The notes beneath the pieces were generated by a model, which did no database searches, was not told where the DNA came from, and saw only the letters and a list, made by a program, of their open reading frames with translations. DNA of 64,000 nt, taken from assembly GCA_029781865.1 (NCBI GenBank), contig JAKOVW010000054.1, positions 186,001-250,000 of the forward strand. Reading direction: 5' to 3'. The DNA is from Bacteroidota bacterium (GTDB taxonomy: Bacteria; Bacteroidota; Bacteroidia; Chitinophagales; Saprospiraceae). The translations under genes were made by a program, and so were the position numbers. How positions within the stretch are numbered: position 1 is the first letter of the stretch; the number at the start of each line of letters is the position of its first letter. This document shows, piece by piece, positions 9,046-34,338 of the stretch.

Positions 9046-9315
9046 TACATTAAAATTCATATCAATTATTAATTCAACAATATTTAAGTTTAATAAATAC
9101 TTAGCCTTACACAATAAATCATTTCCTCTCTCCAATAAATACAAGACGTTGTTGCAAGTTTGCAACTTGCAACTTTTGACTACACCAAAATTCAATATTT
9201 ATTATTGATTCAACAATGTTTAAGTTTAATAAATACTTAGCCTTACTCAATAACTTATTCCCTGATTCCAATAAATAAAAGACGTTGTTGCAAGTTTGCA
9301 ACTTGCAACTTTTGC
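9046..9315. repeat. 135-bp tandem duplication 5' of RAYT-A, each unit ending in a reverse family A palindrome
   Basis: Units 9046-9180 and 9181-9315 are about 85% alike by eye. They share TAAGTTTAATAAATACTTAG-type and CCAATAAATA-type strings and each ends in a reverse palindrome (9151-9173 and 9287-9309) followed by TTTTG. The second unit runs directly into the transposase promoter. Confidence 0.85.
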
Positions 9316-9332
9316 CAATCACGGTATATTTG
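9303..9332 (+). promoter_or_regulatory. Promoter of RAYT-A overlapping a family A palindrome
   Basis: TATATTTG at 9325-9332 is a perfect -7 element, with TTG at 9303-9305 exactly 19 bases upstream. That TTG lies in the right arm of the palindrome 9287-9309. Transcription would start near 9339, nine bases before the ATG. A protein bound to the palindrome would cover the -33 element. Confidence 0.65.
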
Positions 9333-9347
9333 GACATGTAATAACAC

Positions 9348-9902
9348 ATGACACGAATTCAATCGACAAAATCATTTGAAGAAATCTTTTTTGTAACATT
9401 TACCATTGTCCATTGGATTGATCTCTTCACAAGGTTAGAATGCAGAGAACTCATAATTGACAATCTGAAATATTGCCAGAAAGAAAAAGGGCTATTATTG
9501 TACTCCTATGTAATTATGAGTAATCATATTCACTTGATAATTGGTTCAGATGGTAAATTTTTAGTATCTGACATCATAAGGGACTTTAAAAAATATACAT
9601 CAAAGAAACTTTATGAATTTATCCGCACTTCAGGTGAAAGCAGAAAATCCTGGATGTTGCCCATATTTCAAAAATCTGGAAAAGCCAATCCTAACAATAC
9701 ATCAATTCAAATTTGGATTCAGGATAACAATCCAATGTTAATAGAAAAACCAGATTTTTTCTGGCAAAAACTAGAATACATTCATGATAATCCAGTTAAA
9801 GCCGGTTTGGTTTTTAGACCGGAAGATTATGTTTTCTCTAGTGCATCGAGTTATGCCGGATTACATGCCGATGCAATGATTGATATTATAGTGGTTGAGT
9901 AA
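9348..9902 (+). CDS. REP-associated tyrosine transposase (Y1/HUH type), RAYT-A
   Basis: This 184-residue protein belongs to the RAYT group of single-strand DNA HUH transposases related to IS200/IS605 TnpA. Such proteins bind and cut REP-like hairpins. Visible features are F-V-T-F-T near the N-terminus, the HUH motif in M-S-N-H-I-H-L-I (His60 and His62), and Y-I-H-D-N-P-V-K-A-G-L-V (Tyr144, candidate nucleophile region). The typical S-S-A-S-S-Y-A-G end follows. Length and motifs are intact, so it may be active. It is bracketed by family A palindromes in opposite orientation on its two sides. It is clearly related to the RAYT at 33488-34060 with identical spacing of motifs, but the palindromes around the two genes are unrelated. 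Exact catalytic residues are inferred from the family. Confidence 0.9.
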   Translation: MTRIQSTKSFEEIFFVTFTIVHWIDLFTRLECRELIIDNLKYCQKEKGLLLYSYVIMSNHIHLIIGSDGKFLVSDIIRDFKKYTSKKLYEFIRTSGESRKSWMLPIFQKSGKANPNNTSIQIWIQDNNPMLIEKPDFFWQKLEYIHDNPVKAGLVFRPEDYVFSSASSYAGLHADAMIDIIVVE

Positions 9903-10273
9903 GGTATTTGTACAAATCGCAAGTTTTAAATTTGCAATAACAAATGAAGTCCACAAATGCAGTTGCAAGTTGCAAACTTGCAACAACTTGGGGGGTTTGT
10001 GCATACAAAAGCAGTTGCAAGTTGCAAACTTGCAACAACAAGGGTATTTGTACAAATCGCAAGTTTTAAATTTGCAATAACAAATGAAGTCCACAAATGC
10101 AGTTGCAAGTTGCAAACTTGCAACAACTTCGTGCATACTTGCAAAAACAAAGGGGTTTGTGCATACAATTGCAGTTGCAAGTTGCAAACTTGCAACAACA
10201 AGGGTGCATACTTGCAACAACAAGGGGTTGTGTGTAAACAAAAGCAGATGCAAGTTGTAAACTTGCATCTGCT
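9903..10273 (+). repeat. Family A palindromes 3' of RAYT-A, forward orientation, with an 87-bp direct repeat
   Basis: Forward palindromes lie at 9962-9984, 10014-10036, 10102-10124 and 10174-10196. A direct repeat of about 87 bases, starting one base after the transposase stop (9903-9989) and again 140 bases later (10043-10129), carries a diverged palindrome (9917-9939, 10057-10079) plus a canonical one. The block closes with a variant that extends to a perfect 14-bp stem with a 3-base loop (10243-10273). Confidence 0.88.
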
Positions 10274-10322
10274 TGGTTGACTTATTAGTTCTCTTCAACT
10301 AACTAAACAATTCCTAGACGTT

Positions 10323-10345
10323 GTTGCAAGTTTGCAACTTGCAAC
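10323..10345 (-). repeat. Family A palindrome, reverse orientation, outermost copy
   Basis: This is a perfect copy with loop TGC and the same GACGTT left flank as the reverse copies upstream of RAYT-A. It marks the right edge of the palindrome field. The remaining 175 bases to the acyl-CoA dehydrogenase hold no gene. Confidence 0.88.
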
Positions 10346-10520
10346 TGCTTCGGATTTCAAGCTTTCTTCAAGCTCCGGAATAACTCCGGTATTTGTCACT
10401 CTACCCAATTGTACTTATAAATATCTGTTTATCAATTATATACATCCAGATGGCTTTCATTTTTCACTATTCCCGCTACACTATCTTCTCCTTGCTTATC
10501 TTCGCAAAAATTTCTAATAC

Positions 10521-11690
10521 ATGTACTTTACACTGACAGAGGAACAGATTGCCGTACGGGATGCTGCCAGGGATTTTGCCAGAATGGAATTATTGCCTGG
10601 TGTGATTGAACGGGACAGACATATGAAATTTCCTACCGAACAAGTGAAGAAAATGGGGGAACTGGGTTTCCTTGGAATGATGGTCTCTCCGGATTATGGG
10701 GGCGGCGGTATGGATACCATTTCTTATGTTCTTGCCATGGAAGAAATCAGCAAGGTGGACAATTCTTGTTCCGTAATTATGTCTGTGAACAATAGCCTTG
10801 TTTGCTGGGGCCTCGAAAAAATGGGTACGGAGGAGCAAAAGATGAAATACCTTCCAAAGCTGACCTCCGGTGAATGGCTGGGTTGTTTTTGTTTGTCAGA
10901 GCCTGAAGCTGGAAGTGATGCAACCAGTCAGAAAACTACGGCCGTGGATTGCGGAGATCATTATTTATTAAATGGCACCAAAAACTGGATCACCAACGGA
11001 GGAAGTTCCAGCCTCCATCTGGTTATGGCTCAGGCAGACCCGTTAGCGGGCAGCCGCGGTATCTGTACATTTATTGTAGAAGCTTCCTGGCCGGGTGTTA
11101 CCATTGGTGCAAAGGAAGATAAATTGGGAATCCGTTCATCTGATACTCATACCATCATGTATAATGATGTGAAAGTTCCAAAGGAAAATCTATTGAGTTC
11201 AAAAGGAGATGGATTTAAATTTGCCATGAAAACCTTGACCGGAGGACGCATCGGCATTGCATCACAAGCTCTTGGAATCGCTGCAGGTGCCTATGAATTG
11301 TCTCTGAATTATAGCCAGGAACGCAAAACATTTGGTAAACCTATTTCCAGCCACCAGGCTATTGCCTTTAAACTTGCAGATATGGCTACTGAAGTGGAGG
11401 CTGCACGGTTAATGGTACACAGAGCCGCATGGATGAAAGATCAGGGTTTGGATTTTTCAGTAGCTGCCAGTATGGCTAAAGTATTTGCTTCTGAGGTTGC
11501 TATGAAACACAGTATTGAAGCCGTTCAAATTCATGGTGGTTATGGTTATGTTAAAGAATATCATGTTGAACGATTGATGCGTGATGCCAAAATCACCCAG
11601 ATTTACGAAGGAACTTCTGAAGTACAGCGAATTGTTATATCTCGCGCAATCCTGCAAGGGCAATTGTATCAACCCATGTGGATTGAATAG
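10521..11690 (+). CDS. Acyl-CoA dehydrogenase (short/medium-chain type)
   Basis: This FAD enzyme introduces the alpha-beta double bond into acyl-CoA in beta-oxidation or branched-chain amino-acid breakdown and passes electrons to ETF. The 389 residues match the family. Motifs: L-S-E-P-E-A-G-S-D (FAD and substrate contact), W-I-T-N-G, then R-K-T-F-G-K-P-I, Q-I-H-G-G-Y-G-Y, and R-D-A-K-I-T-Q-I-Y-E-G-T-S-E. The last carries the catalytic glutamate (Glu363) at the place used by short-chain members. A near-consensus TATCTTCG lies about 20 bases before the ATG. The next gene follows after 14 bases but is functionally unrelated. A thiolase further on (17208-18383) could act in the same pathway. Confidence 0.95.
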   Translation: MYFTLTEEQIAVRDAARDFARMELLPGVIERDRHMKFPTEQVKKMGELGFLGMMVSPDYGGGGMDTISYVLAMEEISKVDNSCSVIMSVNNSLVCWGLEKMGTEEQKMKYLPKLTSGEWLGCFCLSEPEAGSDATSQKTTAVDCGDHYLLNGTKNWITNGGSSSLHLVMAQADPLAGSRGICTFIVEASWPGVTIGAKEDKLGIRSSDTHTIMYNDVKVPKENLLSSKGDGFKFAMKTLTGGRIGIASQALGIAAGAYELSLNYSQERKTFGKPISSHQAIAFKLADMATEVEAARLMVHRAAWMKDQGLDFSVAASMAKVFASEVAMKHSIEAVQIHGGYGYVKEYHVERLMRDAKITQIYEGTSEVQRIVISRAILQGQLYQPMWIE

Positions 11691-11704
11691 ACTAAAATAA
11701 GATT

Positions 11705-12790
11705 ATGTTTGAACGTGCATGGCATATTGGAACTTTTGCCAAAATACCGGTAAAGATCCACTGGACCTTTCTTTTAATTTTAATATATGTAGCAACCACT
11801 GCAGCTTCCCAGGGTTCCGACTGGAGCGCAATCGTTATAGAAATCTGTTTTGTGCTTGCCATGTTTTTATGTGTGATCCTACATGAATTCGGTCATGCAC
11901 TTACCGCCAAACGATTTGGTGTTACAACGGAAGATATTATCTTACTTCCAATCGGAGGTGTTGCCCGATTAAGAAATTTACCTGAAAAACCAATGCAGGA
12001 ATTGATCATTGCAATCATGGGTCCAATGGTCAATGTCATCATTGCCATTATTGTATTTTCCTTTCTTCTGACCACTTTTGGAGTCTCTTATTTCAATATT
12101 GAAACGCTGGAGAATTTGAATTTTACCAACTGGTCAGGCTTCTTACCACTCCTGATGATTTCAAATATCATGCTTGTGTTGTTCAATATGATACCTGCAT
12201 TTCCAATGGATGGCGGACGTGTCTTGCGTGCATTGCTCGCGATGGGCCTGGGTAAATTAAAAGCTACAAAAATAGCATCTATCATTGGTCAGATCATTTG
12301 TGTTATCCTGATTATTTCCGGAATTTATTTTGAAGCCTATACCCTTTCCATTATCGGGGTTTTCATTTTTATCAGTGCTACTCAGGAATACAGAAGTGTG
12401 GCACTTGATGTTGCCATAAAAAACAAAACCATCAATGACTGTTACAGAAAAGACTATCATAGCTTTACTGAATACACTACGGTAAAAGAAGCTTTTGAAT
12501 TCATATTACACCACAGAGACCGCACTTTTCCGGTTATTAATTTAATGGGACAGTTTAGCGGAAGTATCAGTGCCAGGCAAATTCAATTGGCTTTTAAAAA
12601 AGATCCGAATCTTCGCATTTCGGATATCTATAACCGCAGGTTAATAAGTCTGCATTCATCCACCGGAATTATGAATGCTATGTACGCATTGCGTTCACAA
12701 TCGGAATTGATTTTAGTCACGGAACAAGATGCAATCGTTGGAGTGATCGATATGGACGCCATTCAACAGTTTATTGAAATGCAAAGTTGA
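11705..12790 (+). CDS. Site-2 protease (M50 family) with C-terminal CBS-like region
   Basis: This is an intramembrane zinc metalloprotease. H-E-F-G-H (His60, Glu61, His64) lies in a TM helix. The second metal motif, N-M-I-P-A-F-P-M-D-G-G-R-V-L-R-A, lies about residues 162-177, and its Asp completes the site. About six hydrophobic segments precede a soluble part of about 120 residues with two halves (T-V-K-E-A-F-E-F-I and G-I-M-N-A-M-Y-A-L) that resemble a CBS pair. This is the SpoIVFB-like layout, with no PDZ domain. Its substrate is unknown; family members release membrane-bound regulators. It is close behind the acyl-CoA dehydrogenase and probably cotranscribed. Confidence 0.9.
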   Translation: MFERAWHIGTFAKIPVKIHWTFLLILIYVATTAASQGSDWSAIVIEICFVLAMFLCVILHEFGHALTAKRFGVTTEDIILLPIGGVARLRNLPEKPMQELIIAIMGPMVNVIIAIIVFSFLLTTFGVSYFNIETLENLNFTNWSGFLPLLMISNIMLVLFNMIPAFPMDGGRVLRALLAMGLGKLKATKIASIIGQIICVILIISGIYFEAYTLSIIGVFIFISATQEYRSVALDVAIKNKTINDCYRKDYHSFTEYTTVKEAFEFILHHRDRTFPVINLMGQFSGSISARQIQLAFKKDPNLRISDIYNRRLISLHSSTGIMNAMYALRSQSELILVTEQDAIVGVIDMDAIQQFIEMQS

Positions 12791-12797
12791 CTAAATT

Positions 12798-12995
12798 AGA
12801 TTTGAACTATGAGATTTGAGATTTGAGATCTATAATTCTTTCGATTCATTATGCAGGTCAGACCTGTTCAGTGTTTCTCTTATTCGGGCAACAATTGAAA
12901 TTCCTGAATGCAATAAATACTTCTAAATAAAAATTCTCTTATCAGATTACGAAGATCCTTTTTCAGAATCATCTCTGATCTCATAGTTCAGATCT
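12798..12995. repeat. Inverted repeat, family C, copy 2
   Basis: The left arm 12798-12815 and right arm 12978-12995 are reverse complements with one mismatch in 18 bases. They match the arms at 5503-5520 and 5613-5630. The element fills the gap between two convergent genes, and its right arm ends at the first base of the response regulator stop codon. The interior is AT-rich with no gene. Confidence 0.6.
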
Positions 12996-13756
12996 CAGTT
13001 CTCTCCTTCCCCTTCAAGCCATTTTTTAAACAATCCGGCTTTCTCGGTGCTTACTATGGCTTCTTCTTCCATCGAAGGCTTTAGTAAAACCTTAATCCGT
13101 GATTTTGGGTACACCAGCATTTCTTCAATGGCTTTAATGTGCACAAGTAATTTACGGTTAAGTCTGAAAAATAATTCCGCCGGCGCCATCTCCTCAATTT
13201 TATTTAGGGATTGATCTATCGGATATTTTTTTCCAGACCAGGTGATAATTAAGGTCAGCTTATGGTCGGAATAAAAATAGGCAATATCTTCCTGGCTTAT
13301 AATCTTTAATGATTTGCCAATCTTAATCAGAAACCTGAGATTTTTATTATCCGATCTTTCCAACATTGGATCTGTACTAACCTTGCTTTCTGCTGAAATA
13401 AATTGTTCAATTCGTTGAAGCAAGCGATCCAGTTCATCAACTTTTACCGGTTTCAAAAGATAATCCATGGCCTGTACCTTAAATGCTTTCAACGCATATT
13501 GATCATAAGCCGTTGTGAAAATTAAAATTCCATTGATCTTGAAACGGTCAAATAATTCAAAGCTCTGTCCATCTCCCAATTGTATATCAAAAAACAAAAC
13601 ATCGGTTTTTTCAGTGACATGCTGCGAAAAAAAAGATTCTGCTTCCTGGATACTTGACAACTCTGCCAAGACAGTAATGTCACTTCGAAGCTCAGAAAGC
13701 ATTCTGATCAGCCTTTTAGCGGCCAGCTTTTCATCTTCCAGAATGATAACCCTCAT
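12995..13756 (-). CDS. LytTR-family response regulator
   Basis: It has a receiver domain (residues 1-120) with acidic pocket E7-D8-E9, phospho-acceptor Asp57 in L-F-F-D-I-Q-L-G-D-G, Thr in F-T-T-A-Y-D, and Lys in Y-L-L-K-P-V-K. A LytTR DNA-binding domain follows (about 145-245; I-A-Y-F-Y-S-D-H-K, then F-F-R-L-N-R-K-L-L-V-H, then the I-K-V-L-L-K-P end). It is encoded two bases after the kinase gene (13759-16626) and is surely its partner. Targets are unknown. Confidence 0.93.
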   Translation of the reverse strand: MRVIILEDEKLAAKRLIRMLSELRSDITVLAELSSIQEAESFFSQHVTEKTDVLFFDIQLGDGQSFELFDRFKINGILIFTTAYDQYALKAFKVQAMDYLLKPVKVDELDRLLQRIEQFISAESKVSTDPMLERSDNKNLRFLIKIGKSLKIISQEDIAYFYSDHKLTLIITWSGKKYPIDQSLNKIEEMAPAELFFRLNRKLLVHIKAIEEMLVYPKSRIKVLLKPSMEEEAIVSTEKAGLFKKWLEGEGEN

Positions 13757-13758
13757 AC

Positions 13759-16626
13759 CTATTTATAAATTAAAGGAATTTCAACACTAAATTTTTCATC
13801 TGATTCTTCAATTCTAATTTCTTTATCCGTCAGAAGCTGATATCTCAGTCGGATACTTTCCAATCCAAATCCGGTTGAATCCACATTTGATCGCTTACGC
13901 ATTATTGAATTCCTAAAAACCAAAAAACCGGCATCACAATACACCCATATTTTTAATGGTGAATGAGGAGTAACCTCATTATGTTTGATCGCATTTTCCA
14001 TAAGTAGTTGCAAAGTCATCGGTGCAATCCATGCATTAGATTGAATCAATCCTTTCTCTAATAGAATCTGATCCGGATGCCTTAGCTTGAGCAAATCAAA
14101 ATAATTCATCAGTATGGTCACTTCCTCGTCCAGAAGAATTAAATGCTCATCCCGGTATTTAAGAATATTTCTGAAATAATCAGATAGCTTTTCAGTAAAC
14201 TCAATAGCTTTCTCTTTATCATCTTCGATCAATGAAATCACTGAATTGAAACTATTGAATAAAAAATGCGGGTTGACCTGACTCTTTAAAACTTCAAACT
14301 CCAAAGCCGATGTCTTTCTTTTGATTTCATCTTCTTTAGCTTTCGCCGATTCCCTGCTTCTTATAAAAAAACGCACCAAAGTCACGCCGGTAATAATGAG
14401 CAATCCAAAAAACCACCAGGTTTGCCAGAATGGTTTTCGCACTTCAAAAGAAAATACAATCTGATTCCGGCCATCAAAATACTTATTAATACTGGATTGA
14501 ACAATAAATTGATATGTGCCTGGTGATAAATTCGAATAAGATTCATTTCCTTCTTTAGAATAAATCCACTCCTTGTCATATCCTTTTAAAAAATAACGAT
14601 AGTCCAAATGATCAGAAGCGAGATAATGAATAGCATTAAATTCAAAGGCAATTTGATTATGATTGTATTCAAATACAGAATCTATTCCAAGACGAACAAA
14701 TTGATTCAGCACTTTTATATTGCTGAATGAGTTCTGTGGTTGATTCAATACAGTTAGAATCGTGGGTTGAACTTTAATCACTGCATTTTTACATCCAATC
14801 CAGGTATTGTCATTCTTATCCCTGTAAATAGCATTTAGAGAAGGAACCATTTCCGTTAAACCGAATTCTTCATCCATGGTAATACTCAATTTCTCTTTTG
14901 GATTAATAAGCATTAAAAACCCGGCTCCCGCGGTCAATAATACAGAATCATTGATTAACGAGATACAATCAGACTCCAGGTTTTTAACTGGTGCCTCTAT
15001 CCAAATTAACGAATCCCGTTTAATATCATAATAACCGAGGCCCTCCCTGGATGCATTAAAGTACAGAAGTCCATTAGAACTATAATCGAGATTATATATA
15101 CTATGATTTCGAATTGAATTGTCCAACAGATAAACGCAAGGATCATCTTTGTCAATATAATTAATTCCTTTGCCATCCGTCCCAATCCAAATCCTGTCTG
15201 ATGGTTCAGGCACGATCTGATAAATAAAATTGGTTGGAAGTCCATTGTCACCGGTAAATGTTTTTATATTATTCAATTTCCTTTCATCATGAACAACATA
15301 TATTCTCATAACACCAGCCAAAGTCGTCACCCAGATATAATGATGATTGCCTGTGACCTGAAGTATATTATTATCCGGCAATCCATCCGATTGCTTATAC
15401 CGCGTAACTTCACCCGTATTCAAATTAAACCGAATAAGTCCGCCACCATACGTGCCAATCCAGAAGACATCATTGTCAGGTTCGGGATATATTGTGGTCA
15501 AATTTTCATTTGCAAATTGTGAACGGATCACTTTGCCACTTTTTACATCAATCATTTTCAAACCCGAATCTGTACACAATAACAAGCGATTACCATCCTG
15601 GCTTAATGCAATATCCTGAATTGTTCTGCCCGGCACTTCATATTGCGATATAGGCAAGTTAATGGAAAGCAGTCCTTTACTCTTATGCAGTAGCCATAAG
15701 GTGTTTTTAGCATCCAGAAATATGCTCTGAATTTCGCTAAACTCTATCTTATTATTGAATGGAACAAATCCGGATAATTCGTTCGATTTAACATAAATAG
15801 CCACATCAGTCAGGACAACTTGAAACTCCGTTGAAATCCGGAATGCCAATATCGTTTCTGCATTTTTATTATCCCAAATCATTTTACAGGAATTTTTTTG
15901 CAAATTCCATTCTAATATTCCCGTTGACAAGTTGTCGATATACAAATTCTCACCAAACAATTTCATATTCTGGATAATATCCTGATTTCCTATGCAATCC
16001 AGTTTAACCTGTTTTGTTTGTTTTGCATCCTTAATAAAATTGATGTTCTGAATTCCCTTGTCTGAACTGACGATAATTCCTAATCGATCAGAATACACCA
16101 TATCATTAACATCAGAATAAATGAGCCCATCTTCCGGGCCAAAATGGTAGAGATACTTTTGATTATAAACATATACACCTTCTCCTTTTGTAGCAATCCA
16201 CAATTGATTGCTGTGGTCAACTACTAATTTTGAAATTTTATGTTTAGGAAGTCCTTCCTGCGGTAACCAACGGGTCAATTCCTTATTGTAAATTTTGAAT
16301 AATTCACCGTCCTCACAGGCAACCCATAAAATTCCCTGCTGATCCTCAACCATACTGGTCACACCATGAATCCCAGCAGCTTCAGAGTTTTTGATAAATT
16401 GTTCTGTAATTCCATTATACAGTATTATTCCTTCTGAAGAAGCAATATACATTAAGCCTTTATGATCAATAAATAATTTTTGGAATCCGGACCTTGCCGT
16501 AAAACTTTGCAGATTGTGTTTTGTAATTACCGCTTTGATACCTTCCTGACCTTGGGAAGTCAGTAAAAAGCAAAATTGTACTATCAAAAGTAGGCTAATT
16601 TTGCTTTTTAATTGTTCCTTCAACAT
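13759..16626 (-). CDS. Sensor histidine kinase with two-component-regulator beta-propeller and Y_Y_Y domain
   Basis: The protein has 955 residues. In order: a signal peptide (residues 1-26); a periplasmic beta-propeller of many W-I-G-T / W-V-A-C-type repeats (about 50-620); a Y_Y_Y domain (ending near Y-Q-F-I-V-Q-S-S); one TM helix (W-W-F-F-G-L-L-I-I); and a LytS-type cytoplasmic kinase. The kinase has the phospho-His motif S-Q-V-N-P-H-F-L-F-N-S-F-N-S, L-L-M-E-N-A-I-K-H-N in the N box, and G-F-G-L-E-S-I. This is the usual Bacteroidota arrangement for sensing an external signal and passing phosphate to a LytTR regulator, here the next gene. Its start overlaps the upstream YceI gene by 32 bases, so the three genes are one operon. 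Confidence 0.93.
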   Translation of the reverse strand: MLKEQLKSKISLLLIVQFCFLLTSQGQEGIKAVITKHNLQSFTARSGFQKLFIDHKGLMYIASSEGIILYNGITEQFIKNSEAAGIHGVTSMVEDQQGILWVACEDGELFKIYNKELTRWLPQEGLPKHKISKLVVDHSNQLWIATKGEGVYVYNQKYLYHFGPEDGLIYSDVNDMVYSDRLGIIVSSDKGIQNINFIKDAKQTKQVKLDCIGNQDIIQNMKLFGENLYIDNLSTGILEWNLQKNSCKMIWDNKNAETILAFRISTEFQVVLTDVAIYVKSNELSGFVPFNNKIEFSEIQSIFLDAKNTLWLLHKSKGLLSINLPISQYEVPGRTIQDIALSQDGNRLLLCTDSGLKMIDVKSGKVIRSQFANENLTTIYPEPDNDVFWIGTYGGGLIRFNLNTGEVTRYKQSDGLPDNNILQVTGNHHYIWVTTLAGVMRIYVVHDERKLNNIKTFTGDNGLPTNFIYQIVPEPSDRIWIGTDGKGINYIDKDDPCVYLLDNSIRNHSIYNLDYSSNGLLYFNASREGLGYYDIKRDSLIWIEAPVKNLESDCISLINDSVLLTAGAGFLMLINPKEKLSITMDEEFGLTEMVPSLNAIYRDKNDNTWIGCKNAVIKVQPTILTVLNQPQNSFSNIKVLNQFVRLGIDSVFEYNHNQIAFEFNAIHYLASDHLDYRYFLKGYDKEWIYSKEGNESYSNLSPGTYQFIVQSSINKYFDGRNQIVFSFEVRKPFWQTWWFFGLLIITGVTLVRFFIRSRESAKAKEDEIKRKTSALEFEVLKSQVNPHFLFNSFNSVISLIEDDKEKAIEFTEKLSDYFRNILKYRDEHLILLDEEVTILMNYFDLLKLRHPDQILLEKGLIQSNAWIAPMTLQLLMENAIKHNEVTPHSPLKIWVYCDAGFLVFRNSIMRKRSNVDSTGFGLESIRLRYQLLTDKEIRIEESDEKFSVEIPLIYK

Positions 16627-17137
16627 GCACTTCTATTTTGTCCGCTAATTTCTGATGAACAATCCTGGGAATGGAAATATTATAATCTTCAAGACTAAGA
16701 TTAAAGTCACTGATAAAATTAAGTACCCCGTTTTTTCTCTTTAATACAACGGCAATGATACGTTCTTTTTTAATCCCATGAATTTCCAAATATCCTTTTG
16801 CTCTTATTTTTTCATCGTCAATTTCATTTACCTTAATATTTTCGATAATTCTTCCCACAAATCTGGCCTTCGGGAATTTCGTAGTTTCCATATAATTTTC
16901 ATTGAAGTGAACCATCTGCAATGGGCTATTAAAGCCATCGAAAGAATTAATGTCGACTACAAATGCGAAACTAAGTTCAACCGGATTTAAAAGCCCTGTC
17001 AATTTATTGGAACTTGCCGTAATAGATTCCTGAGGCGCTGAACTGGTAAATTTAATCTTACCCCTCAGATCCATATTTTGAGATTGCAAACCGGTCCACA
17101 AGAATAGGAATAAAACTAATTGATATGATTTCATCAA
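16595..17137 (-). CDS. YceI-family secreted protein
   Basis: The 180 residues start with a signal peptide (about 1-19, ending L-Q-S-Q-N). They continue as a lipocalin-like YceI fold: G-K-I-K-F-T-S-S-A-P, S-F-A-F-V-V-D-I-N-S-F-D-G-F, M-E-T-T-K-F-P-K-A-R-F-V-G and the G-Y-L-E-I-H-G-I-K strand. YceI proteins bind isoprenoid-like molecules in the periplasm; the exact ligand is not known here. Its 3' end overlaps the kinase gene by 32 bases, which suggests that the ligand-binding protein and the two-component system are expressed together. Confidence 0.85.
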   Translation of the reverse strand: MMKSYQLVLFLFLWTGLQSQNMDLRGKIKFTSSAPQESITASSNKLTGLLNPVELSFAFVVDINSFDGFNSPLQMVHFNENYMETTKFPKARFVGRIIENIKVNEIDDEKIRAKGYLEIHGIKKERIIAVVLKRKNGVLNFISDFNLSLEDYNISIPRIVHQKLADKIEVHVEGTIKKQN

Positions 17138-17207
17138 TTCATTAATTGGAACTGGGTTTTAAAAATAGAATGGCGCAGAACAATGATTTTCAATCTTTCA
17201 TATTTCT

Positions 17208-18383: not shown

Positions 18384-18474
18384 GAAACTGGTATTAGATG
18401 TTAGATGATAGTTGTTAGTTTATTTATGGTTGCTCATTGGTAAGCTTTAAATGATGAACGTAGGTTTACCTTTT

Positions 18475-24116: not shown

Positions 24117-24235
24117 TGGAGAATATTTTTAATGGACGAATAAAAGTTAAAATAAATCGGAAAGACTTAATGATCGAATGATATAAATCCATTGTTAAAT
24201 TGGTTGCCTTAAAATCTCATTCATCATATTGAATA

Positions 24236-24266: not shown

Positions 24267-24283
24267 CAAAAAATAAAATCACC

Positions 24284-25834: not shown

Positions 25835-25906
25835 TAAAATGGGTTTTCGATTAATGAATATTACATACTTTTATTTAATTTAATTACGTACAACAATTCT
25901 ATTTCT

Positions 25907-26542: not shown

Positions 26543-26608
26543 TTGCGCTCCTTTCTGCTTTTATACAAAATAAGATTCCTGTTGGGTACTCAAACATATA
26601 TTTTTTTA

Positions 26609-26616
26609 TATATTTG
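26609..26616 (+). promoter_or_regulatory. Possible -7 element of the PorP/PKD operon
   Basis: TATATTTG lies 55 bases before the TTG start of the PorP gene. A TTG at 26582-26584 is 24 bases upstream, slightly further than usual. Confidence 0.4.
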
Positions 26617-26670
26617 AATCTAATTCCCGGTTGACAAGTTATTCATCCTAAAAACAGCCGGAAATGTATT

Positions 26671-27780
26671 TTGAAAACCAGCTGGAAACGAATATTCGGG
26701 ATTGTTTTATTGTTCAAATGCATACACAGCTATGCCCAGGATCCTTTCTCTACTCAATTTTATAACAGCAGATTGCTTTTAAATCCGGCCTGTACGGCCG
26801 ACAAAGGCGCCAGTTCCATCTCTTTCAAATTAAAATCGCAATGGTATACGCCTTCGACTTCCCCTTATAATTCCGGTTCTCTGGTGTATGAGGAGAGTCT
26901 ACCCTGCAGTATTTTGGATTACGGACTCAAACTGACGTTTGATCAGGAAGGTGATGGACTATACAGAACTATTGAAGGCGGTGCTCTGCTGGTAGCCACT
27001 CCTTCCATCCGCAGATACAAATCAAATCACAATTTCAAAATAGGTGCCGATATCTCCTGGGGCATGCAATCAGTCAATTACAATAAACTTGTTTTTTCGG
27101 ATCAACTCGATCCACAATTTGGAGTAAATAAGCCAACCCATTTTATACAGCCAAACGATGGCCGGTCTTCCATTTACTTTAACCCAGGTTTCGGAGTTGT
27201 CTATAAAGGCTTGTTTAATTATAAATCGGCAAGAACTCAAATGCTAAGTATTGGTCTTGGTGTTTATAATATCTATTCTTTGAATAGTGGATTATTCAGT
27301 AACAGTCGTTCTGTTTTGGGACTTTCTGCTTTCGAATCCATGAAATGGACGGCCTTTATTGAATATGAGCTGATCCCTTATTTAAGCAACGATCATTATA
27401 TAAGTATTAAGCCTTTGGTTTTTTATCAAAAACAGAGCAACATTCAGAGTGCCGATGCAGGAGCCAGAATCGCATTATCCAAATTACTCGCCCTTGGCGT
27501 TTATTTTCATTTCACAGATTTTCAATTTACAAGAAATACAGGGTGGATTAACCTGAATGCAGAACTCGGCTGGAAATTAAATGACAACCGGAGAATAGAT
27601 TTAAGTTTAAGCTATTGCAACAATTACTCCGGTCTGCAAAATTTTGCCGGTCTTATTTTTGAATTTGGCATTGCCTATCATTTTAGAAAATTAACCAAAA
27701 CCTGCGGATCGCCAACGAAAGTAAACTGCAGCAGTTTCACTTCGCCAAAAAATAAAATTTATGACAACATCTGGTATTAA
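26671..27780 (+). CDS. PorP/SprF-family type IX secretion outer-membrane protein
   Basis: This is a 369-residue beta-barrel protein with a signal peptide (ending S-Y-A-Q-D). It shows the family start Q-D-P-F-S-T-Q-F-Y-N-S-R-L-L-L-N-P-A and alternating beta-strand patterns up to A-G-L-I-F-E-F-G-I-A-Y-H-F near the end. PorP/SprF proteins are linked to export or surface attachment of one large partner, usually encoded next door. The start is TTG, and an ATG eight bases earlier is in another frame. The gene overlaps the giant PKD gene by 20 bases, so translation is probably coupled and the PKD protein is its likely client. Confidence 0.9.
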   Translation: MKTSWKRIFGIVLLFKCIHSYAQDPFSTQFYNSRLLLNPACTADKGASSISFKLKSQWYTPSTSPYNSGSLVYEESLPCSILDYGLKLTFDQEGDGLYRTIEGGALLVATPSIRRYKSNHNFKIGADISWGMQSVNYNKLVFSDQLDPQFGVNKPTHFIQPNDGRSSIYFNPGFGVVYKGLFNYKSARTQMLSIGLGVYNIYSLNSGLFSNSRSVLGLSAFESMKWTAFIEYELIPYLSNDHYISIKPLVFYQKQSNIQSADAGARIALSKLLALGVYFHFTDFQFTRNTGWINLNAELGWKLNDNRRIDLSLSYCNNYSGLQNFAGLIFEFGIAYHFRKLTKTCGSPTKVNCSSFTSPKNKIYDNIWY

Positions 27781-30700
27781 ATTTTATTTTCTTGTTGCAT
27801 TGTTTATGAGTCTGTTCATAAATGATAGTGTTGCGCAACGGTTCAATACAAATACATCAACAGATTGTGGTAATATCAATATCAAATTTGGCATACAGGG
27901 AGGATTGGATTTTTGCGAAGGTGACACAATAACATTGACCAATACCACAGATTCTACCTTCGACTATTATATCATCGACTGGTCAGAAGGCAAACTGGAT
28001 ACCGTTTATAATAAGAACCCGGTTACCCATATTTACTATTTTCCGGATTCCGTTCTATGCAAAGCCGCTCCCCTTGCCGTATATTTTTTAGGTGTAAAAA
28101 ACTGCAAGGGCAATAAACAAACCAGGGTGTGGGGAGCTTATGGCATTAATCATATTTACCGTCCTCTCGCCAATTTCGAAGCACAGCTGGATTCGGTATG
28201 CTTTGGACATAACATCTGTATGAAAAGCACTGCCTGTAATGCAGATTCGGTGATCTGGAATTTCAATAATGAAATTATTACGACAGACTCCTGTTACGCA
28301 TTCAGCACATCAGGAACTAAACAAATTACAATGATTGCATATAATAAATGTGCAAGTGACACGATAACGAAAAGTTTTACCATTGTAGATTATCCCAGTG
28401 TAAAAGTGAATGTTTCCAATAATATTAAAAACAATTCTGTTTGCAAAGGAGATACAGTAACTTATATCAATGCGAGTAACCAGTGGAGTCATACCAAATG
28501 GACATTTCCTCCATTAAATGGTAAGGTTTGGGTATTGGACACTGCCATTTCGAATTTAGAAAAAAGTCAGCCTTTTGACACCATCATATTTCTCGACACA
28601 ATACGGTTTATTGTTCTGGATACTGGCACCATTAAATTTCGTTTGCTTTCGACAAATCCCTGCGATTCTATTACCTGGGATTATAATCTCAAAGTTGTAG
28701 AATCAGCTATCATTCAATTTCAAACACCCCCCCGGTTTTGTGAAACAGCTGATTATACACCGAATGTAAATTTTATTGGAAGTGTGGATAAATACAACTG
28801 GTCCTTTCCCGGAGGAACGCCTTCAACCAGTTTGCTACCCAATCCAAAAAATATCCACTACGACAAACCAGGAATCTATACCATAATCCTCCGAGCTACA
28901 AATTCATGCGGAACTTCTACTGACTCAATTAAAATTTATGTTGATGCCAAACAAACATTAACTATTGATTCAGTGAAAAATCCGATTTGCAAATCGGCCG
29001 GTTTGATTTCACTTCATGCCAATCTGCCAAACGGAAATTGGTTGGGAACAGGCGTCAATTCACGGGGAATGTTTGATCCTTCTAATTTACCGGCCGGAAC
29101 TTATGACATTATTTATTCCTTGCAATCCGGTGGATGTCTTCTGAATGACACCCTTCAATTAATGATTGTGGATACGACTGCCCTAAATGTATTGCCCTTA
29201 ACCTTATGTGTAAATACTTTACCTGTTCAACTCACTGCAAACCCACCCGGAGGCAGGTTTTCGGGACCCGGAATTAACTCGTTCGGCGAGTTTGATCCGT
29301 CCTTAACAGGTCTTGGTAGTTTCACGATACACTATGATTACATTGATGCAAATTCATGCAGTTCAATGACCACGGCAGAAGTAAAAGTTGAACCACCTCC
29401 TCAAATTTCCAAAAAAGATACTTTAACCGTTTGTTTGGGAATAACCAGTATTAATTTACTCCAGGATTTAAAGTTATCCGCTAATCCTGCAGGCGGACAA
29501 TACTCATTTTTATTGAATGGCAAACCGGTAAATCCTATAATCAATACCCTAAATTATAAAGCAGGTATTTATGTATTGCTCATCAATTATAAAATTAATT
29601 TATGTTCCATTCAGGATACTGCTATAATTAACCTCATTCAAGCCCCTCTATTACAAATTTCCAACGATACCATTCTTTGTGACAGGGAAGGCATATTTCG
29701 TTTGCAAACGAATCAACCGGGTGGAATCTGGTCAGGCCCAGCTGTTAATCCCTCAACCGGATTGATCGATCTTCGCGCTATCGGAAGTGATACAGCCGTA
29801 TACACCTATACCTTTGGAGGAGGAACTAGTTGTGAGTCCGATCAAAGCTGTACCATTATCATCGACGATAAAGGGATAGGAGTGGATGCTGGTTTTGATT
29901 TACAATTTTGCAAAGACTCAATCCGAACGTATCAATTGCAGGGCTTCTCACCAAATGGCGGAAGCTGGAGTGGAAAAGGAATCATAGATAAACAATCGGG
30001 AATCATTGACCTGGATCTTTTGGCTTCTGATTCTATATATATTTATCATTATTGTTTCATCAAACCTTTACGATCCCCTTGTACATTTTGCGATTCCATT
30101 CAACTTATTGTTCATTCATTACCGGAAGCCGATTTTGAAATTATCGGTTCTGCTTGTTTGAATATGAATTTTTCTTTAGATAACAAATCTAAAAATGCAA
30201 TTCAATATCTATGGGATTTTGGTGACGGAACCATCAGCAATCAAAAATCTCCAGCTCATATCTACACCGATACCGGATTACATACCTTAAGCCTGATCGT
30301 AACAAATCAATTTGGTTGCCGTTCTCAAATAATTAAATCTATTGATGTCAAAGCAAATCCTCCGGTAGCTTCATTTGCTTTGGATTCTACAAACGGTTGT
30401 GCTCCATTTCATTTGAATATCAGAAACAATAGCAGTGGTGACAACATATCTTATATCTGGAGTATCGCCGGTGCAACCTATACCGATAGTCTGCCTTCAA
30501 TTACGATTGATGGGATCACCAAGGATTCCGTATTTAAAGTTGAACTTATTGTCCAAAATGGATGCGGTAAGGTCTCAGACTCTAATTTTATTACCGTACG
30601 TCCTTATCCTCAGGTTAATTTTGGAATCGATAGTTTTGAAGGTTGCACTCCATTGGAACTCCATTTTTCGAATAATTCACTTGGCAATGTGGATTTGTTT

Positions 30701-33112
30701 AAGTGGGATATGGGCAATGGGCAATTTTATAATTCATTAAATCCTCCTAAACAAATTTACACTACCAATGATTCAACGACCACCACCTATCAAATAAAGC
30801 TAATTGGAATAAATGAATGTGGAATTGATTCACTGGTTAAAACAATTTCCGTATATCCGCCAAATGTTAGTGCGTTTATAGAAGTCGATCAGACAAAAAT
30901 TTGCCAATACGATAGCTTACAACTGAAATCTTTTTCCACTCCCGGTTCACACATTGATTGGAAGATAATCGAACCCTCCGGCCTAATTAATACATCCAAT
31001 GAAATGCAAACTTATTTCACCTTTGAAAAAGCCGGCCAATATACTATTATCCTGCACGCAGCTAATTGCGGTGAAGATTTTGATACTGTATATATCCGCG
31101 TATTACCAGCGCCAAAAATTGATTTTGATCTACCTGCAATACTGTGCTTGAATGACACAGCATTTTTCATAAACAAATCGTCTGACATCAGTGCTTCATT
31201 TTGGAATTTTGGAGATGGAACAAGTTCAACTGCAACACATCCAAGTCATCTATTCTCGAGTCCGGGAAAATATTCTATTCAATTAACAGGATACGCAATA
31301 GCTAATAATTGTCCTTATACAGTCACTAAGGAAATTGTGGTCATAGGTTCGCCAGAAGCTAAATTTGACGCATCTACTATTGCAGGTTGTGCACCGCTAA
31401 CTGTACACTTTTTCAATAGAAGTATTGGTGCGACAAAATTTAGTTGGAATTTTTCTGATAATAGTTCCAATTCGTTGATTGAGAATCCTATTCATGTATT
31501 TTCACAAGCAGGCAAATACCAGGTCATTCTTCAGGTATTGGACACCAATCAATGCTTTTCAGATACTGCTTTACTAAATATTAATGCATATCCCACCCCG
31601 GTAAGTGAATTTATTGTTGATCCTAAAAATTATTGTCTTGGCAAAGATTCGGTTTTTTTGAAGAATACATCAACAGGTGCTGTTGCATATTCCTGGACGA
31701 TCAATAACTTGCAAAGTTCCGTGATCAATCCCAAATTTCTGCCACAAGACACCGGGGTCATAAATATTCAACTCGTTTCTACCAATGTATTTTTATGCAG
31801 TGATACATTTTACCAAAAAGTACAGGTTGTTCCATCACCATTATCTGCATTCAAAACAGACAAGTCCGATGGTTGTGAAGATCTTGAAATTCAATTCACC
31901 AATCTATCTGCCTTTGCCACCAATTATGTTTGGGATTTTGGTGAGGGAAATACTTCAACTATTCCATCCCCCTCTCATTTGTTTTTGAATCCCGGCCACC
32001 GGACTATTTCTTTAATAAGTATTGGTTCGAATGGTTGTCCGCCGGATACGGTCCAACATAGTATAGATATTTGGCCCTTGCCCGATGCTGATTTTGTCAT
32101 CTTAAAAGATTCCATTTGTGGAGTACCCATGCACGTCCAACTTAAAAATAATTCTCAAAGCAGTTCGAATATCAATTGGGCTTTAAATGGAAAACTCATA
32201 TCGACAAATACGGAAACGGAATACACTTTTGATTCGATTGGCGATTATCAAATATCACTTCATATTTTAAGCGAACATGGATGCTCAGATTCCCTGGATA
32301 AAACACTTTCCATTTATGAAAAACCCATCGCAGACTTTGCATTGGATAATGAAGCATGTGAAAATGCAATATTGAGCCTTCATAATTACTCCAAATTGGC
32401 CAGTCAGTATGAATGGTTTATAGAATCTTTAGGGTATTCCAATGAATTTGAACCTAAACTGACTTTCCTGAATGCAGGAAATTACGATATTCAATTGATT
32501 GCAATAAATAACTCCATCTGTAAGGACACTCTTCTTAAAAAGGGATTCATAAAAATCTACGAGCAACCCATTGCTGACTTCGACTACCAAATCGACGTTG
32601 ATAAAACTATTTCAGGAGATGTTCAATTTACAAATCACTCCAAAAATTACACCGGTCAAAAATGGTATTTTGGGGATGGTTTATTTACTCAATTGGATAA
32701 TCCGCTTCATGTTTACTCAGCAAATCAAAGCTTTGAGGCGACACTTTTTGTTTTTAATACCAATTCAGGATTGTTTACCTGTGTGGATTCAATTACAAAA
32801 TCTATTGGACCGCTTTGGATTACTACTTTTTATGCTCCCAATGCCTTCTCCCCGGAATATGGTGATGGTGATGTAAAATTATTCAAACCTGTCGGACTTG
32901 GAATCGAAAGTTATGAAATGGCAATCTATTCACCCTGGGGAGAACGGGTATGGTATTCAAATACTTTAGAAAACAATTCTCCTTCTGAGTCCTGGGATGG
33001 ACGATATAAAGGTATTCTTGTGCCACAAGGAAGTTATACCTGGATTGCCAAACTTACATTTATCAATGGCAATAAAAAAATTGAAAAGGGAACCGTTACC
33101 GTGCTAAGATGA
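27761..33112 (+). CDS. Giant PKD-repeat surface protein with type B (CHU_C) type IX sorting domain
   Basis: The 1783 residues have a signal peptide (about 1-26, ending S-V-A-Q). A Cys-rich N-terminal part follows, then several G-x-W-S-G-P/K-G-x-tandem Ig-like modules (about 400-760). A run of PKD domains follows with W-D-F-G-D-G-T or variants (W-N-F-G-D-G-T, W-N-F-S-D-N-S, W-D-F-G-E-G-N, W-Y-F-G-D-G-L). The end is a gliding-motility-associated C-terminal domain: F-Y-A-P-N-A-F-S-P, then Y-E-M-A-I-Y-S-P-W-G-E-R-V-W, then W-D-G-R-Y-K-G, then P-Q-G-S-Y-T-W. This is the type B sorting signal that attaches proteins to the surface. It is likely an adhesin or gliding-type protein exported with the PorP/SprF partner it overlaps. 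Confidence 0.93.
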   Translation: MTTSGIKFYFLVALFMSLFINDSVAQRFNTNTSTDCGNINIKFGIQGGLDFCEGDTITLTNTTDSTFDYYIIDWSEGKLDTVYNKNPVTHIYYFPDSVLCKAAPLAVYFLGVKNCKGNKQTRVWGAYGINHIYRPLANFEAQLDSVCFGHNICMKSTACNADSVIWNFNNEIITTDSCYAFSTSGTKQITMIAYNKCASDTITKSFTIVDYPSVKVNVSNNIKNNSVCKGDTVTYINASNQWSHTKWTFPPLNGKVWVLDTAISNLEKSQPFDTIIFLDTIRFIVLDTGTIKFRLLSTNPCDSITWDYNLKVVESAIIQFQTPPRFCETADYTPNVNFIGSVDKYNWSFPGGTPSTSLLPNPKNIHYDKPGIYTIILRATNSCGTSTDSIKIYVDAKQTLTIDSVKNPICKSAGLISLHANLPNGNWLGTGVNSRGMFDPSNLPAGTYDIIYSLQSGGCLLNDTLQLMIVDTTALNVLPLTLCVNTLPVQLTANPPGGRFSGPGINSFGEFDPSLTGLGSFTIHYDYIDANSCSSMTTAEVKVEPPPQISKKDTLTVCLGITSINLLQDLKLSANPAGGQYSFLLNGKPVNPIINTLNYKAGIYVLLINYKINLCSIQDTAIINLIQAPLLQISNDTILCDREGIFRLQTNQPGGIWSGPAVNPSTGLIDLRAIGSDTAVYTYTFGGGTSCESDQSCTIIIDDKGIGVDAGFDLQFCKDSIRTYQLQGFSPNGGSWSGKGIIDKQSGIIDLDLLASDSIYIYHYCFIKPLRSPCTFCDSIQLIVHSLPEADFEIIGSACLNMNFSLDNKSKNAIQYLWDFGDGTISNQKSPAHIYTDTGLHTLSLIVTNQFGCRSQIIKSIDVKANPPVASFALDSTNGCAPFHLNIRNNSSGDNISYIWSIAGATYTDSLPSITIDGITKDSVFKVELIVQNGCGKVSDSNFITVRPYPQVNFGIDSFEGCTPLELHFSNNSLGNVDLFKWDMGNGQFYNSLNPPKQIYTTNDSTTTTYQIKLIGINECGIDSLVKTISVYPPNVSAFIEVDQTKICQYDSLQLKSFSTPGSHIDWKIIEPSGLINTSNEMQTYFTFEKAGQYTIILHAANCGEDFDTVYIRVLPAPKIDFDLPAILCLNDTAFFINKSSDISASFWNFGDGTSSTATHPSHLFSSPGKYSIQLTGYAIANNCPYTVTKEIVVIGSPEAKFDASTIAGCAPLTVHFFNRSIGATKFSWNFSDNSSNSLIENPIHVFSQAGKYQVILQVLDTNQCFSDTALLNINAYPTPVSEFIVDPKNYCLGKDSVFLKNTSTGAVAYSWTINNLQSSVINPKFLPQDTGVINIQLVSTNVFLCSDTFYQKVQVVPSPLSAFKTDKSDGCEDLEIQFTNLSAFATNYVWDFGEGNTSTIPSPSHLFLNPGHRTISLISIGSNGCPPDTVQHSIDIWPLPDADFVILKDSICGVPMHVQLKNNSQSSSNINWALNGKLISTNTETEYTFDSIGDYQISLHILSEHGCSDSLDKTLSIYEKPIADFALDNEACENAILSLHNYSKLASQYEWFIESLGYSNEFEPKLTFLNAGNYDIQLIAINNSICKDTLLKKGFIKIYEQPIADFDYQIDVDKTISGDVQFTNHSKNYTGQKWYFGDGLFTQLDNPLHVYSANQSFEATLFVFNTNSGLFTCVDSITKSIGPLWITTFYAPNAFSPEYGDGDVKLFKPVGLGIESYEMAIYSPWGERVWYSNTLENNSPSESWDGRYKGILVPQGSYTWIAKLTFINGNKKIEKGTVTVLR

Positions 33113-33309
33113 AATTTTTCCAAAGGATGAAAAATAAATTCAAGAAAAATCTTAAAGACTCCATTGGGAATAAATTTATCCTGATTCAATGCATGTAGAA
33201 AACTAAATTGGTAAGTCTTAATCATTCAAACACTTTTCTTCTTGCTGCTGAGCCTAAATACAGTATATGTGTTGCAGCTGGGCGGAAGAGCATCTAACGC
33301 CATGCAGCT

Positions 33310-33553
33310 GGGCGTAGGCTATGCCTACGTCCGTGTGTCAGTAAAACTCCGTTTTGTGCAACTATAATTGATAAGAACAATCGTATTCAATCTTCAAAGA
33401 TTCAATCTCAAGGATTGAGTCTTTGCCCTGCTGTTGGGCGTAGGCTGCGCCTACGTCCGTGCGTCAGCAAAACTCTGTTTTGCGCAACTATAATTGATAA
33501 GCACAATCATATCCAATATCCAATAAATCAATCTCAAGTATCGAATCTTTGCC
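33310..33553. repeat. 126-bp tandem duplication 3' of RAYT-B with family B palindromes
   Basis: Two modules 126 bases apart each carry a palindrome CGTAGGC-3-GCCTACG (33313-33329 and 33439-33455) followed by a second one (AAAAC-TCC-GTTTT at about 33343, and GCAAAAC-3-GTTTTGC at 33467-33483). Each module then continues with the last about 66 bases of the transposase gene. The right-hand module contains the true gene end; the left one carries a copy of it. The gap 33113-33309 has nothing else recognisable. Confidence 0.88.
33362..33427 (-). pseudogene. Duplicated 3' fragment of RAYT-B (last 21 codons)
   Basis: Read on the - strand this piece gives G-K-D-S-I-L-E-I ... Y-D-C-S-Y-Q-L and a TAG stop. 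It matches the C-terminus of the intact transposase (G-K-D-S-I-L-E-I ... Y-D-C-A-Y-Q-L) with six differences in 21 residues and no frameshift. It has no start and is not a gene. It shows that the gene end travels with the palindrome module. Confidence 0.85.
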
Positions 33554-34060
33554 AATATAATTTCTTTCACTACTATACAGCCAGTCTTCCGCTTTCTCAA
33601 CCCAACCTGCACGGATTGGATTCTCATGTATATAAGCCATCTTTTGCTCGAGAAAAGCCATGCTATCTAAAACAATAGCGTGGTTTTCGTGTGTCCAAAA
33701 CTGGTATTTTGAACTTCGAACATGACTTCTTGCAGCAAATTCAAATCGCTTCAACATCCAATCTCTCCGGCTTTCCGAGATAGTTGATATTTTTTTTAAA
33801 ATATGAGTTGCCGTGAATCGCTTAAAATCCCTAACCAATGCAGACAAATTATTATTTCTGGCACTCATAATTGCATGCATATGATTACTCATGACTACAT
33901 ATGCCCAGATTTGTAGTCCTTTGTTTTTCCTGCAATAATCCAAACTATCAATGAGAATATCCCTATAAACTTTCCTGGTAAATATGTCAACCCAGTCAAT
34001 TACCTGAAAAGTTAAAAAATAAAATCCATCTTGATTATCAATTTGATATCCAGTGCTCAT
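33488..34060 (-). CDS. REP-associated tyrosine transposase (Y1/HUH type), RAYT-B
   Basis: This 190-residue protein is of the same group as RAYT-A. F-Y-F-L-T-F lies near the N-terminus, the HUH motif is M-S-N-H-M-H (His60 and His62, the same numbering as RAYT-A), and Y-I-H-E-N-P-I-R-A-G-W (Tyr143) is followed by Y-S-S-E-R-N-Y. Motif spacing is identical to RAYT-A, but overall sequence is much diverged. It is surrounded by family B palindromes (GTAGGC type), unlike the GCAAGTT type of RAYT-A. It is intact and may be active on single-stranded hairpin DNA. I saw no promoter as clear as that of RAYT-A. Confidence 0.9.
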   Translation of the reverse strand: MSTGYQIDNQDGFYFLTFQVIDWVDIFTRKVYRDILIDSLDYCRKNKGLQIWAYVVMSNHMHAIMSARNNNLSALVRDFKRFTATHILKKISTISESRRDWMLKRFEFAARSHVRSSKYQFWTHENHAIVLDSMAFLEQKMAYIHENPIRAGWVEKAEDWLYSSERNYIGKDSILEIDLLDIGYDCAYQL

Positions 34061-34076
34061 GATATAGTGTATTTGA

Positions 34077-34338
34077 GAACTAAGATAATAATATGTAGAG
34101 ACAATAAAATATTTTTTGCAACCGATTTATCCGATATGATTCGAAATACGTGATGGCAAACTGAGTTTGCGAAACACTCGGACGTAGGCGCAGCCTACGC
34201 CTAGCGATGCGAACTATGATAATAACATTGTAAGAAAGAAATATATATTTTGGAACTTAACAATCCGATATGTTTCAAAATACGAAATGGCAAACAGAGT
34301 TTGCGAAACACTCAGACGTAGGCAAAGCCTACGCCTAG
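34077..34338. repeat. 134-bp tandem duplication 5' of RAYT-B with family B palindromes
   Basis: Modules from about 34077 and 34211 repeat at a distance of 134 bases. Each starts GAACTA-GATAATAA and ends in CCGATATG-T-AAATACG, then palindromes GCAAAC-3-GTTTGC (34156-34170, 34290-34304) and CGTAGGC-3-GCCTACG (34183-34199, 34317-34333). Orientation is opposite to that of the modules on the 3' side of the gene. Confidence 0.88.

Follow-up and report, generated by a model that had tools for sequence, protein, structure and literature searches.

How does a gene for a transposase come to stand between sequence modules that are doubled on both of its sides? The question is raised by a stretch of 64,000 nucleotides (here called the window) from a bacterium of the Saprospiraceae (Bacteroidota; assembly GCA_029781865.1, contig JAKOVW010000054.1, positions 186,001 to 250,000). 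The window carries two genes, RAYT A and RAYT B, that lie 24 kb apart in a draft genome of 4.52 Mb in 93 contigs. Both are predicted to encode RAYTs, the tyrosine transposases associated with repetitive extragenic palindromes (REPs). A preliminary description of the window held that the two loci share one build, and that so parallel a structure in unrelated sequences points to a shared mechanism by which the enzyme copies or adds its own end modules.

The duplications are real, and others like them are found in excess beside RAYT genes in relatives. The outer ends of the doubled modules are anchored at hairpins, the tails of RAYT genes are copied in some of them, and C is preferred as the last base at their inner ends. 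This suggests that hairpins, perhaps together with the enzyme, set where copying stops. The reading preferred here, tentatively and with slightly less than even weight, is that REP arrays at RAYTs arise by a local duplication that is anchored at a REP and is probably begun by RAYT cleavage. The mechanism first proposed is therefore partly supported. The excess at RAYTs and the anchored outer ends argue for it; against it, doubling is not confined to RAYT loci.

Two RAYT loci and their doubled modules

RAYT A (9348..9902, + strand, 184 amino acids) scores 89.2 bits against the family model NF047646 and matches Y1_Tnp; RAYT B (33488..34060, - strand, 190 amino acids) scores 101.7 bits against NF047646, whose cut-off is 80. 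The genome holds five matches to the RAYT family, and only these two stand above that cut-off. The motifs are NHIH and YIHDNP in RAYT A, NHMH and YIHENP in RAYT B. By their scores, by the HuH histidines and the tyrosine, and by the inverted REPs that flank them, both are assigned from sequence to the RAYT (TnpAREP) enzymes. The two proteins are homologous (38% identity). Thus, the view that the two loci are unrelated in sequence holds for the modules, and not for the proteins between them.

Upstream of RAYT A, a module with a period of 136 bp is present in 2.3 copies (9010..9314, + strand, as delimited by Tandem Repeats Finder). In register, the copies at 9052-9178 and 9188-9314 are 88% identical over 127 nt. 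This periodic stretch contains three hairpin units, the outermost degenerate, with units at 9153-9171 and 9289-9307. Downstream, the first copy of the 3' module (9903..9989, - strand, unit at 9964-9982) begins at the base after the stop codon of RAYT A. The second copy (10043..10129, - strand, unit at 10104-10122) repeats its 87 nt with zero mismatches at an offset of 140 bp, and the repeat is longer in a gapped alignment; more units lie at 10016-10034 and 10176-10194.

At RAYT B, the 3' module includes the final 63 nt of the reading frame with its stop codon. The proximal copy (33425..33550, + strand, unit at 33439-33455) holds the true gene tail (33488-33550), and the distal copy (33299..33424, + strand, unit at 33313-33329) holds a diverged copy of that tail. 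On the 5' side, the proximal (34074..34205, - strand) and distal (34208..34339, - strand) copies each carry a unit at the outer end, at 34183-34199 and 34317-34333. The downstream duplication is one of 126 bp at 84% identity, the upstream one of 134 bp at 80%.

All four duplications, with periods of 136 and 140 at locus A and 126 and 134 at locus B, thus needed only small corrections. Their best ungapped direct-repeat scores are 90, 87, 76 and 67. The highest scores among dinucleotide shuffles are 13-16.5, and not one shuffle in 500 attains any of the four. The opposite orientation of the units across the gene, also proposed in the preliminary description, is true of the units nearest the gene at both loci. 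Its further statement, that each module carries one palindrome unit, is correct for both sides of B and for the 5' side of A; in the 3' module of A, two units are strong and a third is degenerate.

Both kinds of unit fold well as single strands. The A unit does so with -9.8 kcal/mol (z -3.4), and the head at the foot of its hairpin is GTTG. The B unit is compound, with two hairpins within 50 nt (-15.1 kcal/mol, z -4.2), and its head is T[AG]GG. Neither is the canonical GT[AG]G. REPs tagged by CGTC are described, in the passages of PMC3733652 used here, as having a stem of 8-9 bp, a loop of 4-5 nt and an unpaired CGTC end. The B unit was considered as one of these and rejected; its loop has 3 nt and its CGTC bases lie inside the stem.

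Duplications beside RAYT genes in relatives

A profile built from the RAYT A and RAYT B proteins finds matches in 127 of 398 genomes of the family (E 1e-15) and, at the level of the class, in 146 of 396 (E 1e-25). Three sets of loci were drawn. Set 1 comprises 80 loci of a named collection, 80 fetched regions and the window itself; set 2 comprises 80 regions from the class-level profile search; set 3 takes loci of the family and further searches whose genes are absent from sets 1 and 2. In all sets the loci are part of the matches listed, picked for their score and for the space that the contig left around them. Genes that shared a 60-mer with earlier sets or with each other were removed, which took set 2 from 82 to 80 and set 3 from 114 to 74. 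Among 223 full-length proteins (from 251 genes), both HuH histidines and the catalytic tyrosine are kept in 99-100%; NH[LIV]H is present in 185 and YIH[NQ]NP in 101.

A flank was counted as doubled if it held a direct repeat with a period of 40-400 and a score of at least 45 bits, only the best-scoring pair per flank being counted. Second matches of 70 bits or less were left out, as were flanks that extended less than 300 nt past the gene or began identically. Control windows were taken 1 kb from the RAYT gene at the same loci. Those in the counts of sets 2 and 3 were not made unique; with identical ones removed, 26 of 421 control windows of sets 1 and 2 carry a repeat.

Doubled modules at homologous RAYTs elsewhere, which the preliminary description had said should be sought, are indeed present. 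Direct repeats occur in 88 of 308 RAYT flanks against 22 of 284 controls in set 1, in 36/157 against 4/150 in set 2, and in 24/138 against 2/40 in set 3. An ungapped measure agrees in set 1, where repeats common to both flanks are also found across the gene (58/133 vs 7/198). In sets 1, 2 and 3, 19 of 145, 9 of 77 and 3 of 64 genes have duplications on either side, 31 of 286 in all.

RAYT flanks contain more noncoding DNA than control windows do. Sets 1 and 2 were therefore stratified by noncoding nucleotides. Flanks exceed controls with fewer than 100 such nucleotides (17/52 vs 9/269), with 100-200 (13/70 vs 5/57), with 200-300 (16/112 vs 1/42) and with 300-400 (17/93 vs 2/23). Combining all strata gives an odds ratio of 3.7 (P 1e-8); leaving out the coding-dense one below 100 nt gives 2.4 (P 0.002). 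The excess at RAYTs is real, yet after noncoding content is matched it is smaller than the raw counts imply.

What does not recur is the size. The preliminary description saw in lengths of 126-140 bp a shared build, and this is coincidental, only nine of 124 modules falling within that range. A conserved module length as a clue to mechanism was accordingly rejected; the median is 140, with a 5-95% range of 67-315.

Where the modules end is more informative. Modules of at least 60 nt with a hairpin were tested against a null obtained by sliding; those that were shorter (below 50 nt for end composition), lacked a hairpin or were cut by the edge of the analysis were left out. The end-point tests were fixed in writing before set 2 was fetched, and that on C|T across the inner end before set 3. 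The range of 3-10 nt beyond the hairpin was picked after set 1 and fixed, alongside a wider range of -6 to 15, before set 2. The outer end lies 3-10 nt beyond the hairpin in 21 of 53 modules of set 1 (null 5.1) and in 7 of 19 of the independent set 2 (null 1.9, P=0.0014). All sets together give 31 of 81 (null 8.2), and copies at least 88% identical give 22 of 52 (null 5.6). Because the anchoring is kept at high identity, decay is an unlikely cause of it. For inner ends, the same range holds 1 of 17 in set 2 (null 2.0) and 3 of 9 in set 3 (1.2), or 16 of 83 over all sets (null 8.7, P=0.012) and 9 of 53 at high identity (6.0, P=0.13). In the wider range, outer ends count 25/53 (14.5), 11/19 (5.6) and 6/9 (3.5, P 0.08) in sets 1, 2 and 3; inner ends count 23/57 (15.6), 3/17 (5.9) and 4/9 (3.6). 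Of the control windows with a direct repeat of at least 60 nt, 13 of 19 have no internal hairpin, too few remaining for an anchoring test.

The inner end may lie inside the gene. Of 68 downstream modules, 23 take in over 8 nt from the end of the RAYT coding sequence; upstream overlap was left uncounted because start codons had been set at the furthest ATG. On the strand that has its 5' side outward, modules finish with a C at the inner end in 47 of 120 cases, where 25.3 are expected (26/70 against 14.6 in set 1, 15/31 against 6.6 in set 2). Across the pooled sets, only this inner-end C itself holds.

The spacing between copies was examined in 58 high-identity pairs of sets 1 and 2. Copies overlap by more than 10 nt in 18 and by 1-10 nt in three; they abut or lie no more than 15 nt apart in 14, and lie more than 15 nt apart in 23. 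Overlaps of 1-10 nt are few and separated copies are many. This, in turn, makes the pattern unlike simple slippage.

Hairpins are themselves dense here, at 1.52 per 500 nt in RAYT flanks against 0.25 in control windows. A hairpin stem is common to both flanks in 142 of 286 loci, by a test that is blind to orientation. The commonest four bases before these shared-stem hairpins are GGCG (24 of 284), TCGG (10) and AGCG (9), not GT[AG]G, and TGCC often follows. Bases of the GGCG type could be a recognition tag of this RAYT group.

At some loci the gene itself has a neighbor of its own kind. Co-directional RAYT pairs no more than a few kb apart are 100% identical at L204 and L160, where an assembly error is possible, and 92-96% identical at L186, L097 and L189. 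At L271, a truncated second RAYT copy of 321 nt is 94% identical to part of the adjoining full gene.

The same units elsewhere in the genome

The A unit has 87 matches (two mismatches or fewer) at 15 sites in this genome, one of which is RAYT A. Most sites are multi-unit, and in 11 of the 13 multi-unit sites without a RAYT all units point one way. With cores masked, eight of the 14 non-RAYT sites still hold repeated spacers, the weakest masked-core repeat being that at C37d (24 nt); C82 has a single core. The most regular arrays are at C37e (12 units, ten successive 63-bp spacings) and C51 (four 84-bp spacings). Of 105 site pairs, 17 show some similarity; C37c and C37d form the strongest such pair, and RAYT A belongs to none. 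By these comparisons, the element common to sites throughout the genome is mainly a core of about 27 nt; doubling takes in this core together with mostly local DNA. Since doubled arrays occur at sites without a nearby RAYT match, the build is not special to the enzyme's own ends. At these non-RAYT sites the cores are so dense that both ends of the array adjoin a core at many sites, which makes them not discriminating as to anchoring. The repeated unit is not an inverted REP pair, as it would be in a bacterial interspersed mosaic element (BIME) or a REPIN; A units are mostly unidirectional.

The B unit is less dispersed than the A unit, with matches at locus B itself and, on contig C51, in two clusters. 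There, at L018, a B-type inverted pair about 242 bp long stands in two tandem copies with 82% identity (2231-2472 and 2484-2727), and a related 387-bp copy lies at 8612-8998, about 6 kb from the doubled pair. The RAYT family searches gave no match on the contig that bears these pairs.

Within the window, further units lie beyond the modules. Upstream of RAYT A, an outer array of A units repeats 5.4 times with a 72-bp period (8506..8902, units on the - strand, by unit scan and Tandem Repeats Finder). Its spacer recurs downstream of RAYT A, and its units are oriented as the 3' units are. Set 1 contains the four flanks of the window, and the A 5' pair scored there is this 72-bp array, not the 136-bp module. 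By unit scan, the outermost downstream A unit (10325..10343, + strand) is in opposite orientation, as is an extra B unit beyond the 5' modules (34412..34428, + strand).

A gene named from its sequence as homoserine dehydrogenase-like (7255-8439) adjoins RAYT A upstream. The gene upstream of RAYT A is matched in only two of nine genomes of the genus, its own included, with 48% identity in the other; the gene beside RAYT B has a best identity elsewhere of 53%. The window also holds an 8-bp tandem repeat, AGGCTGTT, in 11 copies at 96% (43109-43197), and short tandem repeats of 7 bp and 14 bp side by side at 62203-62270.

How the modules might be copied

A RAYT is a HuH single-strand nuclease. Under the preferred reading, it would cut a REP at its outer foot while the DNA is single-stranded. 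A second RAYT cut would then fall at a permissive site further in, toward the gene, sometimes inside the coding sequence and with a preference for sites ending in C. Joining or copying the released or displaced strand next to the old one would leave the segment doubled. After two copies exist, recombination could alter copy number further. That the RAYT makes the cuts, and that its substrate is single-stranded, we infer. Both the anchored outer ends and the inner-end preference for C are compatible with the action of a HuH nuclease on single strands; template switching would give the anchoring as well. In the passages of PMC8266576 consulted, TnpAREP enzymes bind single-stranded REPs and cut them at C|T, one of them also at C|A. 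There is also a proposal that REP arrays originate through circles (cited in PMC3733652, in the portion used). A more specific proposal is possible, although we regard it with some doubt: that Bacteroidota RAYTs add copies in a one-ended manner, with the REP outer foot as the fixed end and any permissive site ending in C as the other, so that the segment, which may include the RAYT tail, is printed beside the original.

Several results weigh against duplication begun by RAYT cleavage. No such duplication is found in 455 of 603 RAYT flanks. In set 3, outer ends at 3-10 nt number 3 of 9 (null 1.2, P=0.10), which is not significant, and inner ends give the identical count; in set 1, inner ends in that range stand above the null (12/57 vs 5.5, P=0.004). 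The inner-end C is found in 6 of 19 modules of set 3, with 4.0 expected. No cleavage motif marks the outer end; a CT there was tried and rejected, being weak in set 1 (P=0.02-0.03), not enriched among the high-identity copies of that set (P=0.33-0.35) and failing in set 2 (P=0.83-0.92). A C|T across the inner end was likewise rejected; it stood at 15/101 against 5.7 in sets 1 and 2, post hoc, and at 0/19 in set 3. The copy of the RAYT B tail is found nowhere else in its own genome. At sites with repeated spacers and no RAYT, the enzyme would act in trans. Further, noncoding content explains part of the excess; where windows have at least 400 noncoding nucleotides, the difference between flanks (61/138) and controls (9/30) is not significant on that stratum alone (P=0.22).

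The strongest rival invokes no RAYT. Here, a fork would stall at a hairpin, the strand would re-prime further back, and the segment would be copied twice. Such template switching accounts for one anchored end, for a free other end and for arrays away from RAYT genes, and the density of hairpins would make RAYT flanks hot spots in any event. It fits poorly, however, with how seldom high-identity copies overlap by 1-10 nt and how often they lie more than 15 nt apart, and with the inner-end preference for C that two of the three sets show; we consider it rather unlikely. Unequal homologous recombination between REP units would multiply core and spacer together. The long regular arrays (C37e, C51), the high-identity pairs that overlap by more than 10 nt as runs of tandem copies, the repeats shared between flanks across the gene and the whole RAYT genes doubled in tandem at some loci all speak for it. 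Given the long arrays and the doubled genes, this process probably acts as well. It cannot, however, make a first duplication whose inner end lies in coding sequence free of REPs, as in those downstream modules that take in the end of the gene, that of RAYT B among them, and as an explanation of the modules it is improbable.

The skeptical view would be that no link to RAYTs exists, that short duplications are frequent in noncoding, hairpin-rich DNA, and that the likeness of loci A and B is coincidental. Module lengths near 126-140 are, as seen above, nothing special; 255 of 286 RAYTs lack doubling on at least one side; the noncoding-rich controls approach the flanks; and this genome has doubled arrays where it has no RAYT. 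Nevertheless, the excess survives stratification, even without the coding-dense stratum. Controls 1 kb from RAYTs may, moreover, hold arrays of the same REP, and the control is therefore conservative. The absence of any link is very improbable.

Some of this was already known: in Proteobacteria, RAYTs beside tandem REP clusters; in Bacteroidota, RAYTs whose hairpins are atypical (PMC6006769). REPtrons, as described by Nunvar 2010 (PMC2817692), are RAYT genes with inverted REPs on either side, one third of them in BIMEs, and the rayt gene of E. coli has BIME-2 on both sides (PMC2817692). Like REPtrons, the present loci place a RAYT between oppositely oriented REPs, with inter-REP segments unrelated between clusters (PMC2817692); unlike them, A sites hold mostly head-to-tail units, lack a GT(A/G)G head and belong to a Bacteroidota host. 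In Pseudomonas fluorescens SBW25, tandem REPINs with flanking sequence form a cluster beside each of three RAYTs (Bertels and Rainey 2011, PMC3116915). Repeat and flank are in tandem there too, and likewise the units are usually parted by a short unrepeated stretch; in SBW25, however, the repeated unit is an inverted REP doublet, whereas the A sites here hold mostly single units of the same orientation (PMC3116915). Tandem REP clusters with flanking DNA are known in general (Di Nocera 2013, PMC3733652), and a shared core with a doubled local spacer is much the same as in Stenotrophomonas clusters (PMC2817692) and REP clusters generally (PMC3733652).

Closest in host is TnpAY1 subclass 2.6 of Bacteroidetes, with its signature of NH[LIV]H, WQ and YIH[QN]NP (PMC6006769). 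It shares with the present group a Bacteroidota host, similar HuH/Y motifs in many relatives, and atypical recurring hairpins without GT[AG]G (PMC6006769). RAYT A fits NH[LIV]H and not the Y form; RAYT B, with NHMH, fits neither. Duplicated modules are not reported in the passages of PMC6006769. Nor do those of PMC2817692 describe anchored module ends or copied gene tails, and those of Di Nocera 2013 (PMC3733652) mention neither module ends relative to the hairpin nor copied RAYT tails. In the RAYT and REP literature examined, at the level of titles, abstract starts and passages, no earlier account was found of module ends anchored at hairpins or of copied tails of RAYT genes. What is new here is the anchored geometry.

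This bears on the formation of REP arrays and on the role of RAYTs in their hosts. When a duplication has one end at the foot of a hairpin, it leaves a specific sequence footprint, countable in any genome. With it, the statement that RAYTs spread REPs becomes a prediction of exact end points, and the copied gene tails reveal the direction in which the copied segment extends. If one-ended copy-adding by Bacteroidota RAYTs is true, a single activity would account both for REP arrays with local spacers and for doubled RAYT gene ends.

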